Below are positions 14,246 through 20,077 of a DNA stretch of 64,000 nucleotides, in pieces. Each line of letters opens with the position of its first letter. Positions within the stretch are counted from its first letter, which is position 1. Position numbers and translations under genes: made by a program. Source of the DNA: Bartonella birtlesii IBS 325 (GTDB lineage: Bacteria > Pseudomonadota > Alphaproteobacteria > Rhizobiales > Rhizobiaceae); the NCBI RefSeq assembly GCF_000273375.1, contig NZ_CM001557.1, positions 1,189,473-1,253,472 of the forward strand. The letters run 5' to 3'. The notes under the pieces were generated by a model. That model made no database searches. It was given only the letters and a program-made list of their open reading frames with translations, and was not told the origin of the DNA.

Positions 14246-15622
14246 ATGGTAGCAAATGAATTGAAACGGGGTATGAATAAGCGTCAAGTTATTTTTTTAG
14301 CTCTTGGTTCTGCTATTGGTACAGGTCTCTTTTATGGATCGGCACAAGCGATTAAGCTTGCAGGGCCAAGTGTTTTGATTGCTTATTGTATTGCTGGTTT
14401 AGCTATTTTTATGGTTATGCGCGCTTTAGGAGAGATGATTATTCATGATCCACTGCCCGGTTCTTTTGCCCGTTATGCTGCAAATTACATATCGCCGTTA
14501 GCTGGCTTTTTAACAGGGTGGACATATGTATTCGAGATGATTCTTGTTGGTTTGGCTGATATCACAGCTTTTGCAACTTATATGGGATTTTGGTATCCTA
14601 ATGTCGCGCCTTGGATATGGGCACTTAGTATTACACTGATCATTACAGGAATTAATTTAGCCGCAGTAGAAGTATATGGTGAACTAGAGTTTTGGTTATC
14701 TTCCATTAAAATTATTGCTATAGTTGCGATGATTATTTTAGGGATAGTGATTATTTTATTTGGTTGGGATACAAGTGTAAATTCTTCTACTGTTACTATT
14801 TACAATTTGTGGGAAAATGGTGGTATTTTTCCTAATGGTTGGTTTGGTTTTTTGGCTTGTTTTAGTGTTGTTGTCTTTGCTTTTGGTGGCATAGAAATCA
14901 TAGGGATGGCAGTAATGGAAGTACAAAATCCTTATCAAACAATTTCAAAAGCAATTAATTCTACCCCAGTTCGTATTTTGCTATTTTATATTATGACATT
15001 GGCTATTCTAATGTCTCTTTATCCTTGGAATAAAATTGGTCTTATGGATAGTCCTTTTGTTTCAATTTTTGAAAACCTTGGAATTTCATATGCAGCAAAC
15101 ATCCTAAATATTGTTGTTGTTACAGCGGCTATTTCAGCAATGAATAGTGGAATGTATGGCGCTTGTCGCATGATACATGGGTTATCTCAAGAAGGTTATG
15201 TTTTAAAAAAATTTCAATATTTATCAAAAAATGGTGTACCAATTCTTGTTATTTTACTAATCTTCATAATTTTTCTTTTTGGTGTTATTCTTAATTATTT
15301 TTACCATGAAGGGCTATTTTTTCTTATTGCGTCAATGGCAACGTTTGCAACGGTTTTCGTTTGGATGATGATTTTACTTTCACAAATTTTTATGCGGCTA
15401 AAAATGTCTAAAGAAGTACAGAATAGTTTAAGATTTCCAATTCCATTTTGGCCCATTGGACCGATTTTTTCTATTTTATTTATGGCTTTTATCTTTATTA
15501 TATTGTGGTTTTTCGATAATACACGGCCAATTCTAATTGTAGGACTTATTTGGCTTATTGGGCTTGTTGTTTGTTTCTATGCACTTAAACTTTACAATTT
15601 CAAGAAAAGCGAGGTACACTAA
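14246..15622 (+). CDS. Amino-acid permease, APC superfamily (ProY/HutT-like)
   Basis: Inner-membrane proton-coupled amino-acid importer with about 12 hydrophobic segments. The N-terminal ALGSAIGTGLFYGSAQAI stretch is the APC signature, and RALGEMIIHDPLPGSF is typical of the AnsP/ProY/HutT branch. I chose ATG 14246 (MVANELKRGMNKRQ); in-frame starts at 14201 and 14231 would add a short basic leader. Length is 458 aa. It is the next intact gene after hutH, so histidine is an attractive substrate, but about 1.1 kb of decayed DNA separates them and the substrate is inference only. Confidence 0.88.
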   Translation: MVANELKRGMNKRQVIFLALGSAIGTGLFYGSAQAIKLAGPSVLIAYCIAGLAIFMVMRALGEMIIHDPLPGSFARYAANYISPLAGFLTGWTYVFEMILVGLADITAFATYMGFWYPNVAPWIWALSITLIITGINLAAVEVYGELEFWLSSIKIIAIVAMIILGIVIILFGWDTSVNSSTVTIYNLWENGGIFPNGWFGFLACFSVVVFAFGGIEIIGMAVMEVQNPYQTISKAINSTPVRILLFYIMTLAILMSLYPWNKIGLMDSPFVSIFENLGISYAANILNIVVVTAAISAMNSGMYGACRMIHGLSQEGYVLKKFQYLSKNGVPILVILLIFIIFLFGVILNYFYHEGLFFLIASMATFATVFVWMMILLSQIFMRLKMSKEVQNSLRFPIPFWPIGPIFSILFMAFIFIILWFFDNTRPILIVGLIWLIGLVVCFYALKLYNFKKSEVH

Positions 15623-16663
15623 AATATAGATAAGATTTAACTTGGGAAAATAGCTGATGCTTTCAAGAAAAAATACGTCTTATAATTGCTTTCTAGAAAT
15701 TAAAAATAAATTTCCTAATAATCATGTTGTTTTAAAGCGATATGATAATTATAGCCAATAACAGCAGCTAAACTATATAAAACGGTAACAGCTACAAAAC
15801 AGAGAAAGCTAAAGCTATCCTTCTTTAATCACCTATATCCCATTGATGCAAGAATTACTTACAATCCTCTACTTCTTATAAGCTATGCTTCAATCTACTC
15901 TATTTTTGATATCTGCTAACAATTCTCATGAGAGAGATGGAGAGTCTAACTCCACCATGATTGTAGTACCTATAATTATTATGGAAATTCAAGTTAGAAC
16001 GTATAGGGAATTACGATATATTTACTTCTGCATTAATTTATTAAAAAAATTAAGAGAGCAAAAATGAAACAAATTTTAAGACGATTGAGTGGTCTAGCTT
16101 TATTAAGGATAGTTGGATTTGATACATGAAACATCTTTAAATTTTCTTTAGAGAAGGTATTTGGATGAAAAAAACTTGGTGTAGATTTTACTGGGGCAAG
16201 AAAGCCAATTTATCTATTGTGGAATAAAATATCGTCATTTAAGGCAGAAATATTAATGCATTTTTATCGCAAAGCTTAATATATTCAATTTTTAAATATG
16301 CTAACAGCTGTTACTGAATATAAGAATAAGACTATTGTCTTATTTATAAAACAGAGTGTATAGTCTTAACTTAGATTGGGGGTGCTAAGATTTTTTTCTT
16401 TCTTTAGTTCGGTGAGGAGGTTTGTTATACCTAAAAAAACGGCTAAAAGTCTCATTATTTTTTGAATTATAGAGATGGTGAGGAAATTCTATTGCAATGT
16501 CATGTAAAAGTAGATCGTAGCTTTCTCAATTATTAAGTTTTAAAATATGACCTTAAAAAGGAAATTCTTTGCAAAATTTTAGGCAATTACATTGTCGCTC
16601 TGATCATTTTGATAAGATTGATGTCAAAATTAAGGAGAAGTAGCAATATTTCCATCAGGTCAC
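15623..16663. other. Gene-poor region with fragments of decayed coding sequence
   Basis: No intact gene. On the minus strand at 15720-15825 a frame ends in a membrane-protein-like tail (FVAVTVLYSLAAVIGYNY), perhaps the last helix of a lost transporter. On the plus strand near 16140-16280 the pieces FSLEKVFG and KKLGVDFTGARKPIYLLW are joined through a stop. Near 16463 a short NYRDGEEILLQCHVKVDRSF frame is visible. I recognise none of these. A repeat copy lies at 16301-16410. Confidence 0.4.
16301..16410 (+). repeat. Left copy of a ~110-bp diverged direct repeat flanking the ATP-grasp/DMT cassette
   Basis: It shares with 19104-19212 the ordered blocks TAA(C/T)AGCTGTTAC, a small hairpin (AATAAGAC/GTCTTATT here), TTAGATTG, and a closing T/C-rich run ending TTTAG. 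The hairpin arms differ between the copies but still pair, which suggests a structure under selection, or shared ancestry of a small element. Confidence 0.55.
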
Positions 16664-17923
16664 TTAAATATGAGTTTTCCATATAATATTTAAGGTATTA
16701 TCAAGCCACTTATGGTAATCGCGCGCTTCTTGATCTGAGGTATGAACAGAAAAAATAAAACCAGGATATCCACCGAATGCTGGTGGAGGTGGCGAAATAT
16801 GATCAATTTCAAAGAAAATGATAGTTCTAGCAGTTAGTGGGTGCTGTACAACCTTATCCAAACCTGAAAATCCACAAAATTGTCCATGACCACGAAGAGG
16901 AATAATATAATTTGCAGCCACTTTTTTAGCTGAGAGTACATTAGGAAGGTCTGGGTTTGATTCAGCTAAAGCGGCATTCATACAGAGTTTTGCAAATGAA
17001 ATCTCTGTACCTTGCTCCACAATAAAATGGGAGACACCAGATCCACCTATACGAGCGCCGATCTCAATTATATAGGGTACATTATTGGCATCTAGGCGTA
17101 ACTCTACATGGGCTGCACCCATATTTATACCAAGAGCTTTCACTCCAGAGCATGCAGCCTTACATAAAGCAATAATTAAAGGATCATCTATATCACAGCG
17201 TTGACGATAAATTGTTTCTTCAAACCATGGTCCTTCAGGTTGTCCCTTATCTCCAACAGCCAAAACGTGCACACCTGCTGTATCGACAAAGCATTCCACA
17301 ACAAACTCTTTTCCTGGTAAATACTGTTCTACTACTAAACCTACAGATTTATTTTCATAGTTGAAACGTGTCATATCTTTATGCTGAACATTCCATACCG
17401 CTTTGATGAGATCAGGAAATTCTTCAGAATTTTTAGCTAACATTACGCCTATACTACCAGCTCCAAAAACGGGTTTAATGACCAGCGGCCAACCCAAAGC
17501 ATGGGCTTGTGATAGATCTTCTGGATTATCTATATAAAAAAATCTTGGTGTTCTAAGCCCTGCTTTAACAAAAGCTTGACGCATTAGATATTTGTTCCGA
17601 GTTAATGCCGCTACTTCTGGCTCAATACTGGGAGTATTGATTTTTTTTGCAGCTAAAGCTGTCCATATAATGGCTTCTTCGCAAAGAGTCATAACCCCAC
17701 CAATATTGCGTTCTTTCACTCCGGCCGCAAAAACGTCTAGAGCTAAGTCTGGATGATCAAAAACAGGAAGCTGCCAAGTTGAAGTTACTGCCGCAGGTAG
17801 CTGAATAGGTGCATTTTCAGCGATATCATAAATCATTACTAATTCGATGTTAGCTGCTTTCGCAGCTTCAAATATAAAGGGTAGTTTTGCATTACGCTGA
17901 CAAACTAACGCCAATTTTTTCAT
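16664..17923 (-). CDS. ATP-grasp ligase, L-amino-acid-ligase-like
   Basis: A 419-aa ATP-grasp enzyme expected to activate a carboxylate as acyl-phosphate and join it to an amine. An N-terminal pre-ATP-grasp domain (1-105) leads to NKYLMRQAF (110-118). ATP binding follows with VIKPVFGAGSIGV (148-160) and EQYLPGKEF (199-207). Metal ligands fit Glu274 and the EIGARIGGS motif at 287-295, the form common in bacterial L-amino-acid ligases and related peptide-forming enzymes. It is not CarB, PurK or PurT by length or context. It begins 12 bases after the exporter gene behind an AAGGAAAA ribosome site, so the two form one operon. Dipeptide or amide synthesis is inference; the substrates are unknown. 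Confidence 0.85.
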   Translation of the reverse strand: MKKLALVCQRNAKLPFIFEAAKAANIELVMIYDIAENAPIQLPAAVTSTWQLPVFDHPDLALDVFAAGVKERNIGGVMTLCEEAIIWTALAAKKINTPSIEPEVAALTRNKYLMRQAFVKAGLRTPRFFYIDNPEDLSQAHALGWPLVIKPVFGAGSIGVMLAKNSEEFPDLIKAVWNVQHKDMTRFNYENKSVGLVVEQYLPGKEFVVECFVDTAGVHVLAVGDKGQPEGPWFEETIYRQRCDIDDPLIIALCKAACSGVKALGINMGAAHVELRLDANNVPYIIEIGARIGGSGVSHFIVEQGTEISFAKLCMNAALAESNPDLPNVLSAKKVAANYIIPLRGHGQFCGFSGLDKVVQHPLTARTIIFFEIDHISPPPPAFGGYPGFIFSVHTSDQEARDYHKWLDNTLNIIWKTHI

Positions 17924-17935
17924 TTTATTTTTTCC

Positions 17936-18868
17936 TTATAATTTAGAATTTTTGGAACGGTGTTTCAGTTGCCATCCAGATACTTTTGATGCATCTATAA
18001 ATAAGAGTATCATCCCTATAACAACTACAATCATAGCAATTATTTTGATAGTACTTAGAGAAGTTCTAGAACCAATTATCCATTCACATGCCACTACTGC
18101 AAAAGGAGCTAATACGCCGATAGTATTGGCGTATAATACGCCTCCTTCGGCTAAAACTTTTTGGTACAATACGTAACCTGGTGTAGATAAAAAGGCTCCT
18201 AAAATCAATATCTTAAATATATCTTCTAACTTAATATGTAATAGTGGAGCAGAATCAAAAATGAATAATGGCATAAATGATGCTGCAGAAATTGTAGTAA
18301 TCCAAGCCAATGCGGTTAGCAAAGGTAAATTTTTAAGATAACGTTTAGATAACAAGCCATAAATAGAGTAAGAAAGTGCTGCTATTAAAGCAAGACCTAT
18401 CCCTATCAAGCTATAATATCCATCCTCTACACTGTTTATATTGAATGCTACAGCTGCTACACTAACAATTATCACCCCGCCAAGCTTCAGCCATGAGAAC
18501 TCAAGGCCATGAGTCAGTGCACCCAATATATAGGTAATACCTGGAATAGTGGCGAGCACCATAGTTAAATCACTAGCTTTGAGCGATTTTAAAGCGCCAA
18601 AGCTGCATACAAAATACAGCGAGAATCCTAATACTGATAGAATTAAAAAAGAAGGCATCATTGCAAGCAACGGTAATGATCTTAAAGCGGCTTTTTCACG
18701 AAATACTACGATCAACCACAAAGCTGCAGCAGTAGCACATAACCTAAGTCCAACTGCATGCATTACCGGTATACTGTTAACCAAATTCTTAGATAATAAC
18801 CAACTTATGGAAAACAACGCCAGAATAGTAAAAGTAAAGAATAATAACCGTCCTTTAAAAAAACTCAA
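17936..18868 (-). CDS. DMT/EamA family exporter paired with the ATP-grasp ligase
   Basis: Inner-membrane transporter with about ten hydrophobic helices in two EamA-like halves. The first half includes FGALKSLKASDLTMVLATIPG and the second ALSYSIYGLLSKRYLKNL. Members of this superfamily often export amino acids or small metabolites. A frame extends upstream to 18901, but the best ribosome site (GGGAG, 9 bases ahead) favours TTG at 18868, which lies 4 bases after the stop of an upstream broken frame. Length is about 310 aa from there. The tight operon with the ATP-grasp enzyme suggests it exports, or imports precursors for, that enzyme's product. Confidence 0.83.
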   Translation of the reverse strand: MSFFKGRLLFFTFTILALFSISWLLSKNLVNSIPVMHAVGLRLCATAAALWLIVVFREKAALRSLPLLAMMPSFLILSVLGFSLYFVCSFGALKSLKASDLTMVLATIPGITYILGALTHGLEFSWLKLGGVIIVSVAAVAFNINSVEDGYYSLIGIGLALIAALSYSIYGLLSKRYLKNLPLLTALAWITTISAASFMPLFIFDSAPLLHIKLEDIFKILILGAFLSTPGYVLYQKVLAEGGVLYANTIGVLAPFAVVACEWIIGSRTSLSTIKIIAMIVVVIGMILLFIDASKVSGWQLKHRSKNSKL

Positions 18869-18872
18869 CGAT

Positions 18873-19040
18873 TTAATCTCCCAATAATGCACGGTGCACA
18901 ATATGATGTTGAAAAATTAAATTGTGATTACTAAATTTACGGTTTTCTACAATTACTTTGGATATAACCTTAGTATCTGCCAAATAAGCGTTATTATCGA
19001 ATGCATCAAGTGTTTTTGTATTTGCTATCTCAATATTTTG
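18873..19040 (-). pseudogene. 5'-truncated open frame ahead of the exporter, possible third cassette gene
   Basis: Between an in-frame stop at 19041-19043 and a TAA at 18873-18875 the minus strand is open for 55 codons and reads like real protein (for example NNAYLADTKVISKVIVENRK and HHIVHRALLGD), but no ATG is present. Just upstream another frame gives CFLKYWGVTKY, as if one frameshift separated two parts. Its stop lies 4 bases before the probable exporter start, a spacing typical of coupled genes. I do not recognise the family. Confidence 0.45.
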
Positions 19041-19103
19041 TTACGCCCCAATATTTCAAAAAACAAGATATAAGAAAAACAAATTCTTTTTAAAAAATTA
19101 TTT

Positions 19104-19212
19104 TAATAGCTGTTACCAAATATATGTACAAGATCATTGTCTTGTTTGTAAAAAAAAGGGTATATTTTAAAATCAGATTTAGATTGATAGAATCTTTTTC
19201 CTTTTTTAGAAT
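19104..19212 (+). repeat. Right copy of the ~110-bp diverged direct repeat
   Basis: Partner of 16301-16410 in the same orientation. Its hairpin arms are ACAAGA (19128-19133) and TCTTGT (19140-19145), differing from the left copy yet still complementary. The copies bracket the exporter, the ATP-grasp gene and the broken frame, about 2.7 kb, and lie outside all intact genes. Confidence 0.55.
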
Positions 19213-19294
19213 AGAAAAAGAAATCAATTTAAATCTTAATTAGATATATAAATCTTTGAAAAAATCATTTTTTTAATATCAAAAGTGGAACAAT

Positions 19295-20077
19295 ATGCGT
19301 GAAATTTTGAATCATTTTGATAGGTTCTTGAATAAAAATAGCTCTGTTCAGAAGACTCAAAATCTTTCATGCCAACCATTACCAAAACGATTTTATAGAG
19401 AAGTAACAATCGCTTGTGAGAAGGGAGGCTTTTCCCTCTTATTGGATGGATGTCCAATCAAGACACCAGCAAAGCGCCATTTTCTCTTGCCAACGGAAGC
19501 GTTTGCTAAATTTATTGCACAGGAATTTACAAACCAAAAACGAGTTATTGATCCAGCAAAGATGCCGATGACACGTCTTGTTAACACCGTTATTGATGGC
19601 ATCGCTGATGATATGCAAGTTGTTTTTGAAGATTTGTTGCGTTTTGTTGCTTGTGATATGATCTTTTATCGCGCTCAAACACCAAAAGAGTTGGTACAAC
19701 GACAATGTGAACAGTGGGATCCTTTATTGAATTGGGCAGAAGAAAAACTTGGTGCACGTTTTCATATAACAGAAGGACTTATGCATGTTGAACAATCACG
19801 TGAAGCACTCCAAGCGGTAAGCAATTATCTTCGTAAAGTTGAATCTCCTTATATACTTGCTGCACTTCATACAATGACAACTTTAACAGGGTCAGCTCTT
19901 ATTGCGCTCGCTGTTATGGCAGAAAAAATAAGTGTAGATCACGCTTGGTCTATTGCCCATTTAGATGAAGATTGGATGATAGAACAATGGAGCACTGACA
20001 AAGAGGCAATGGCACATCGTACTCATAAAAGAGTTGAATTTAATGCTGCTGCTACAGTTATAATAACCTGTTTGTAA
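19295..20077 (+). CDS. ATP12-family F1-ATPase assembly chaperone
   Basis: Alphaproteobacterial homologue of mitochondrial Atp12, which binds the F1 alpha subunit during ATP synthase assembly. The family pattern is visible along the 260 aa: KRFYREVTI near residue 31, GCPIKTPAKR, ...EWxxQ-like EFTNQKRVIDPAKMPMTRL, DLLRFVACDMIFYRA, and the C-terminal half with WDPLLNWAEEKLG and LDEDWMIEQWSTDKEA. The start is ATG at 19295. The gene converges with the next one and is not next to the F0 genes, which begin at 61.9 kb. The F1 genes are not in this window. Confidence 0.9.
   Translation: MREILNHFDRFLNKNSSVQKTQNLSCQPLPKRFYREVTIACEKGGFSLLLDGCPIKTPAKRHFLLPTEAFAKFIAQEFTNQKRVIDPAKMPMTRLVNTVIDGIADDMQVVFEDLLRFVACDMIFYRAQTPKELVQRQCEQWDPLLNWAEEKLGARFHITEGLMHVEQSREALQAVSNYLRKVESPYILAALHTMTTLTGSALIALAVMAEKISVDHAWSIAHLDEDWMIEQWSTDKEAMAHRTHKRVEFNAAATVIITCL

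Follow-up and report, generated by a model that had tools for sequence, protein, structure and literature searches.

A ligase and exporter pair in Bartonella birtlesii as the probable remnant of a bacilysin-like dipeptide operon

The ligase and exporter genes beside ATP12

The genome of Bartonella birtlesii IBS 325 is a single contig of 1.83 Mb (NZ_CM001557.1), and the stretch of 64,000 nucleotides analysed here (positions 1189473-1253472), referred to as the window, carries a small gene cluster for a putative dipeptide ligase and its exporter next to the gene of the ATP12 chaperone. The cluster lies on the minus strand and is composed of two intact genes and one remnant: an L-amino-acid ligase of the BL00235 type (16664-17923, 419 amino acids), a DMT/EamA exporter (17936-18868, 310 amino acids counted from the homologous TTG start) and, ahead of the exporter, the remains of a gene for a DUF6421/PolE-like oxidase (18868 to about 19070). 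The ATP12 gene (19295-20077, plus strand) is outside the cluster and serves as the anchor of the locus. The ligase and the exporter are the only sizeable proteins encoded between two direct repeats, which are discussed below.

The ligase matches the Pfam families ATP-grasp_4 (77.8 bits, cut-off 27) and ATPgrasp_N (43.1 bits, cut-off 27), and it resembles a solved L-amino-acid ligase along its whole length, more closely than it does other ATP-grasp enzymes. The closest known protein is BL00235, the L-amino-acid ligase of Bacillus licheniformis (PDB 3VOT). The family LAL_C2 (PF18603) is not listed for the ligase of the window at E 1e-3, and it scores 27.3 bits in the Pseudomonas orthologue, below the cut-off of 29.4. 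A housekeeping enzyme of the PurK or CarB kind is ruled out by both sequence and fold, the latter being that of an L-amino-acid ligase. Among 50,697 phage records no match to the ligase was found at E 1e-20.

The exporter matches EamA (87.2 bits, cut-off 28.2); its mechanically called open reading frame (ORF) begins at the TTG at 18901, and the alignment with the Pseudomonas homologue begins at the TTG at 18868. The exporter stop is only 12 bases ahead of the ligase start and the two genes are therefore likely to form one operon, in agreement with the first-pass annotation, which had placed an exporter and a ligase-like ATP-grasp gene in a single unit. No structured RNA was matched in 15600-19400 at E 1, and no anti-phage defence family was found at the locus.

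The first-pass annotation had also reported a broken gene just ahead of the exporter (a frame at 18873-19040), and this too is borne out, the frame being best read as a C-terminal scrap of a DUF6421 gene. A tblastn search with an intact Bartonella DUF6421 protein recovers residues 348-401 from the window, split over two frames at 18868-18966 and 18969-19028 (E 3.7e-5), and DNA alignment to homologues extends the remnant by 19030-19070, so that it spans approximately residues 312-401 and is frame-broken and internally deleted. The small frame ending at 18873 is present, with 36 codons from a TTG, and is contained in this longer remnant with in-frame stops. The Pseudomonas DUF6421 protein gives no match in the whole studied genome at E 1. 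Intact versions of the gene are found in 5 of 22 Bartonella loci.

DUF6421 is the family of PolE, described in PMC12614342 as an iron- and pterin-dependent L-isoleucine desaturase of polyoxin biosynthesis. The likeness consists of the Pfam family (assigned on the P. batumici copy), the match of DUF6421 to SnPolE and SmPolE in a PDB search, and the metal motif, which is conserved as HDxxH-x(22/23)-E in all five intact copies checked (three Bartonella, two Pseudomonas). PolE differs in its pathway partners, and the window keeps only a tail without the HE/DxxH...E motif, which is located at residues 235-263. The family is rare, being found in one of 398 genomes of a phylum sample.

The fuller operon and its probable source

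In several Bartonella the gene order is fuller and reads BacA-like, DUF6421, EamA, ligase. The same order is found in Pseudomonas batumici, P. salomonii, P. edaphica and P. cichorii (L048-L051), where a prephenate-dehydratase-like (BacA-like) gene, DUF6421, EamA and the ligase are followed by a branched-chain (class IV) aminotransferase, and where the proteins are 63-77% identical to the intact Bartonella copies. Domain scans of the operon were run on P. batumici. The Pseudomonas operon is complete, whereas the window has just two intact genes, and the Bartonella loci lack the adjoining aminotransferase gene. In genome G024, on the same contig as the locus L036 of Bartonella sp. DB5-6, the operon is split (L110/L111), its 5' part being located about 41 kb from the C-terminal part of EamA and the ligase.

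Some matches of the BacA-like gene are annotated YwfB or "bacilysin biosynthesis protein BacA", which are annotations and not assays. BacA decarboxylates prephenate without aromatisation, as stated in PMC9147277. The P. batumici BacA-like protein matches the Pfam dehydratase family with 23.1 bits, under the cut-off of 25.2, and a PDB search with it has as its best match (E 0.0015) an unrelated-looking hydrolase, across half the length. An ordinary prephenate dehydratase is encoded elsewhere in all seven genomes searched, including the studied one; the BacA-like gene has no match in the window.

The fuller operon resembles the bacilysin operon (BacA prephenate decarboxylase, BacD ligase, BacE exporter) in its BacA-like first gene, its dipeptide ligase and its exporter. 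It differs in carrying a DUF6421 gene and an exporter of the EamA type, in a ligase which is only 17% identical to BacD, and in that none of the five Pseudomonas genes is annotated BacB, BacC or BacG, their domains being others. Beside the ligase of the window no BacB, BacC or BacG gene appears, the ligase and exporter being all that is encoded between the repeats, although the Bac proteins themselves were not used as search queries. The window is not classed as a bacilysin operon, because it contains no BacA-like gene.

Outside Bartonella and Pseudomonas the gene set recurs in varying composition. Six plasmid records are listed for DUF6421, two of which (Pantoea X85 and Tsukamurella) are outside the neighbourhood count, and the BacA-like gene adjoins DUF6421 in 5/5 further replicons examined for the latter. 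Pantoea SS70 carries EamA, ligase, BacA-like and DUF6421 genes, and a mobilizable 25.6-kb Staphylococcus xylosus plasmid has the same four genes by annotation, DUF6421 spanning the start of the record. On this plasmid, which is from fermented soybean (L121 1-25611), the gene set adjoins acetyltransferase genes and copies of IS257 are present elsewhere. The Pantoea and S. xylosus ligases are 37-38% identical to that of the window. In Serpentinimonas and genome G659 the BacA-like/DUF6421 pair adjoins a LysE-type exporter gene and lacks a neighbouring ligase gene, G659 also having an aminotransferase-like ORF. In Pseudoalteromonas the pair is accompanied by an aminotransferase, two ATP-grasp genes and a 3-deoxy-D-arabino-heptulosonate 7-phosphate (DAHP) synthase/chorismate mutase gene. 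The neighbouring chorismate mutase gene agrees with prephenate as substrate, and a LysE-type exporter without a ligase would fit, in these few cases, the export of a free amino acid, a dipeptide being made where the ligase is present.

The distribution of the ligase in Bartonella is patchy. An orthologue, intact or broken (more than 300 bits), is found in 19/61 genomes, and in seven further genomes the matches are limited to one relic and weak ATP-grasp relatives. Ranked by ATP12 identity, every one of the 19 carriers falls in the group of 34 genomes with 75% or more, and the 27 genomes with at most 70% include none. Of 397 genomes sampled from the order and searched at E 1e-30, only two match the ligase, the studied genome itself and one with a relative at 37% identity. 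Named loci encoding a relative of the ligase number 22, namely 18 from Bartonella (83-93% identical) and four from Pseudomonas (73-77%). In a quickly searched tree, built with 9/15 intact Bartonella ligases and 40/101 database matches, the nine Bartonella ligases form one clade (Shimodaira-Hasegawa-like approximate likelihood ratio test, SH-aLRT, 100), which is nested in a set of 18 (SH-aLRT 96) together with the four named Pseudomonas rows and five unplaced sequences. The occurrence in 19/61 Bartonella genomes, against a single 37% relative outside the genus in the order sample, points to horizontal acquisition; a Pseudomonas-like source is well supported by these sequence comparisons, an exact donor is not.

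Erosion and selection across Bartonella

The genus was compared over 22 loci (the window, L034-L047, L052-L055 and L105-L107) from 21 genomes, L055 and L105 being assigned to one by their contig positions. L047, with a ligase of 400 amino acids, was scored as not intact and L039, with 416, as intact; BacA-like frames were scored without a check of the start codon. Intact frames number 2 for the BacA-like gene, 5 for DUF6421, 12 for EamA and 15 for the ligase, and no locus has all four. By Fisher tests, which are uncorrected for shared ancestry, the ligase is intact more often than the BacA-like gene (p 1.2e-4) and DUF6421 (p 0.006), and the exporter compares likewise with the BacA-like gene (p 0.003) and with DUF6421 (p 0.06); ligase and exporter do not differ (p 0.54). 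The operon is thus eroding from its 5' end in Bartonella. A full-length BacA-like protein is known from other B. grahamii sequences as P0114, which has 46 member sequences. A DUF6421 tail starting near residues 312-323 is common to several loci including the window, and a scrap of the N-terminus of DUF6421 remains between rluC and ATP12 (L094 5315-5609) in a genome without ligase or exporter, which must therefore have carried the operon formerly.

Selection was estimated as omega (the ratio of nonsynonymous to synonymous rates, dN/dS) with the Muse-Gaut (MG) codon model, the ligase and exporter tests using intact copies only. In loci with a DUF6421 deletion omega is 0.169 for the ligase (n=5) and 0.168 for the exporter (n=3), and omega of 1 is strongly rejected (twice the log-likelihood difference, 2dlnL, 188 and 102.5). 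The window was excluded from these final sets, its exporter-ligase tract being of the B. taylorii type; with it added the values are 0.160 (six loci) and 0.192 (four loci). Among the window, B. taylorii and B. vinsonii omega is 0.178 for the ligase (2dlnL 76.1) and 0.23 for the exporter (2dlnL 33.8), and in the close pair L037/L040, neither member of which has an intact DUF6421, the ligase dN/dS is 0.15. The DUF6421 scrap of seven loci, from which the window and L034 were excluded, has an omega of 0.62-0.64, not significantly different from neutral (2dlnL 3.8, p 0.052), in contrast to 0.21 for the same region in the five intact loci (2dlnL 38.7). On these codon comparisons the ligase and the exporter look preserved by purifying selection where DUF6421 has been lost.

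The tract of the B. taylorii type covers positions 18850-17201 (about 1.65 kb, with the exporter and the N-terminal half of the ligase), where 10/11 blocks of 150 bp are 97-100% identical to B. taylorii and the other is 95% identical, the adjoining blocks being only 78-90% identical. This pattern is that of an inter-species recombination mosaic.

Function of the retained pair and nature of the repeats

From the gene content, homology, losses and constraint observed we conclude that the locus probably represents the 3' half, left by truncation, of a bacilysin-like dipeptide operon gained by horizontal transfer, and that the ligase and exporter would still join and export a dipeptide. In the ancestral pathway the BacA-like enzyme would decarboxylate prephenate without aromatisation, an aminotransferase would yield a non-aromatic amino acid and the DUF6421 enzyme, as an iron/pterin oxidase, would oxidise it; the ligase, using ATP, would then couple the oxidised amino acid to a second one and EamA would export the dipeptide. 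At present the special amino acid would no longer be made, and the pair may join and export a dipeptide of amino acids already in the cell.

Several observations weigh against this reading. No aminotransferase gene is found beside the Bartonella ligase, neither in the window nor in the relatives, where matches are at chance level (E 2 or worse), and the idea of a relic of the Pseudomonas gene behind the ligase was rejected on the same searches; an aminotransferase homologue (43-45%) is encoded elsewhere in 7/7 genomes searched. Part of the matches of the BacA-like gene are annotated prephenate dehydratase, and we know of no assay on this branch. Promoter-like and terminator signals at the locus are at or below shuffled expectation, the promoters being at chance level. 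The residue Pro85, given in PMC6920838 as a specificity residue of BL00235, corresponds to Glu83 in the ligase of the window; the specificity is therefore not transferable, and we leave substrate and product unassigned. Higher ligase dN/dS values, 0.34 and 0.38, come from the close pairs L045/L107 and L046/L106, in each of which DUF6421 is intact in one member. The ligase is broken, short or a scrap in 7/22 loci and the exporter is not intact in 10/22, so neither gene is indispensable. Because of the inter-species recombination, some of the constraint seen may have been exerted when the operons were still complete.

The pair could instead be an orphan immunity, detoxifying an antimetabolite of relatives with the full pathway, the ligase capping a toxic amino acid as a dipeptide which EamA expels. 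The genes lost are those of synthesis, the last two steps are kept, relatives with an intact DUF6421 exist, and the bacilysin exporter BacE also confers self-resistance according to PMC9147277. This is nevertheless rather unlikely, as no product or toxicity is known, no locus has the four genes intact, and the exporter, on which immunity would be expected to rest, is intact no more often than the ligase (12 versus 15 of 22).

A wider version of this idea, which we consider unlikely and mention as speculation, is that BacA-like, DUF6421, ligase and exporter genes define a so far undescribed family of pathways for non-ribosomal dipeptide antimetabolites. The family would extend over Proteobacteria and a mobilizable plasmid of Staphylococcus and would have been captured by rodent-associated Bartonella, in which non-producing lineages would keep the pair as immunity against co-infecting producers. 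Several observations speak against a strict four-gene family, among them the rarity of DUF6421. The Pantoea and S. xylosus exporters, annotated EamA/DMT, give no blastp match to that of the window at E 1e-3. In G414, a genome of the same order (L128 3781-6097), an EamA-like gene is directly ahead of a 37% relative of the ligase and neither a BacA-like nor a DUF6421 gene lies within 11 kb; a ligase-exporter pair can therefore stand alone. On a Streptomyces angustmyceticus plasmid with a 29% relative of the ligase no DUF6421 or BacA-like gene is annotated or found nearby.

It is also conceivable that decay is simply in progress, the whole operon being useless in Bartonella and the ligase and exporter merely unbroken so far. 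Decay of this kind would account for the breaks that affect each of the four genes within the genus, for ligases broken in several genomes (a scrap in L055) and for the patchy presence. The low omega of the ligase and exporter where DUF6421 is gone, set against a scrap that is indistinguishable from neutral, makes it improbable, and so does the finding that the ligase, the longest of the four genes, is the least broken (15/22, against 2/22 for the shortest).

The repeats at the two ends of the cluster, 16294-16407 past the 3' end of the ligase gene and 19096-19209 next to ATP12, are both on the plus strand, 114 nt long and 73% identical without gaps (blastn E 7e-14 within the window), much as the first-pass annotation had described them (diverged direct repeats of about 110 bp). 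The second of these is conserved sequence upstream of ATP12. A third copy occurs in the same genome about 277 kb off, some 360 bp 3' of rluC (L104 5492-5590; G000:C1 near 1483500), and from this it follows that a rearrangement separated rluC and ATP12. In cluster-free Bartonella loci rluC is upstream of ATP12 in 17/18, and a repeat copy precedes ATP12 in 9/18, the other nine having no match longer than 25 nt; of the nine with the repeat, L094 is the one that retains the DUF6421 scrap and L089 has a second copy close by. In carriers the cluster adjoins ATP12 in 20/22 loci (for L053 and L055 ATP12 is outside the fetched stretch), running towards it in L034, L035, L036 and L039 and away from it in the other 16, including the window. 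The repeat tree, from so short a sequence, has no branch reaching 95. A frame of about 917 amino acids, assigned to no family, is located beyond the ligase in L037, L040, L041 and L044, where small lipoprotein-like frames accompany it, and upstream of ATP12 in L097.

The repeat thus reads as chromosomal backbone sequence copied in a local rearrangement, not as the end of a mobile element. That the repeats bound a mobile cassette moving as a unit, as first proposed, is highly improbable: the cluster does lie between direct copies in the window and in eight further carriers (L042, L043, L045, L046, L047, L054, L106 and L107), and such copies could result from integration by a single crossover at the repeat, but the repeat precedes ATP12 in cluster-free loci with rluC upstream, the carriers share one locus, the two ends are diverged and tend to group by position, only the ligase and exporter are enclosed as sizeable proteins, and no recombinase is found among the proteins of 16294-19209. 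Of the initial interpretation the enzyme, the exporter and the broken gene stand, and the movement of the cluster as a unit by its repeats does not.

The constituent families of the operon are already known; the combination of BacA-like, DUF6421, ligase and EamA genes, and its partial survival in Bartonella, was not met in print, as judged mostly from listings, nor was any pairing of prephenate decarboxylase with ATP-grasp in Pseudomonas. Searches linking Bartonella to amino acid ligases, or to ATP-grasp transfer from Pseudomonas, returned only unrelated works, for amino acid ligases as judged by title. A secondary-metabolite operon is unexpected in a reduced, blood-borne genus, and its 22 loci at various stages of erosion reveal which parts are still selected once the special amino acid cannot be made. 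The operon connects the recently characterised oxidases of the DUF6421 family with BacA-like enzymes and with dipeptide ligases. It also lets a product class be predicted for operons whose products have so far been labelled hypothetical proteins and nothing more, and it opens the native role of ligases of the BL00235 type to testing.

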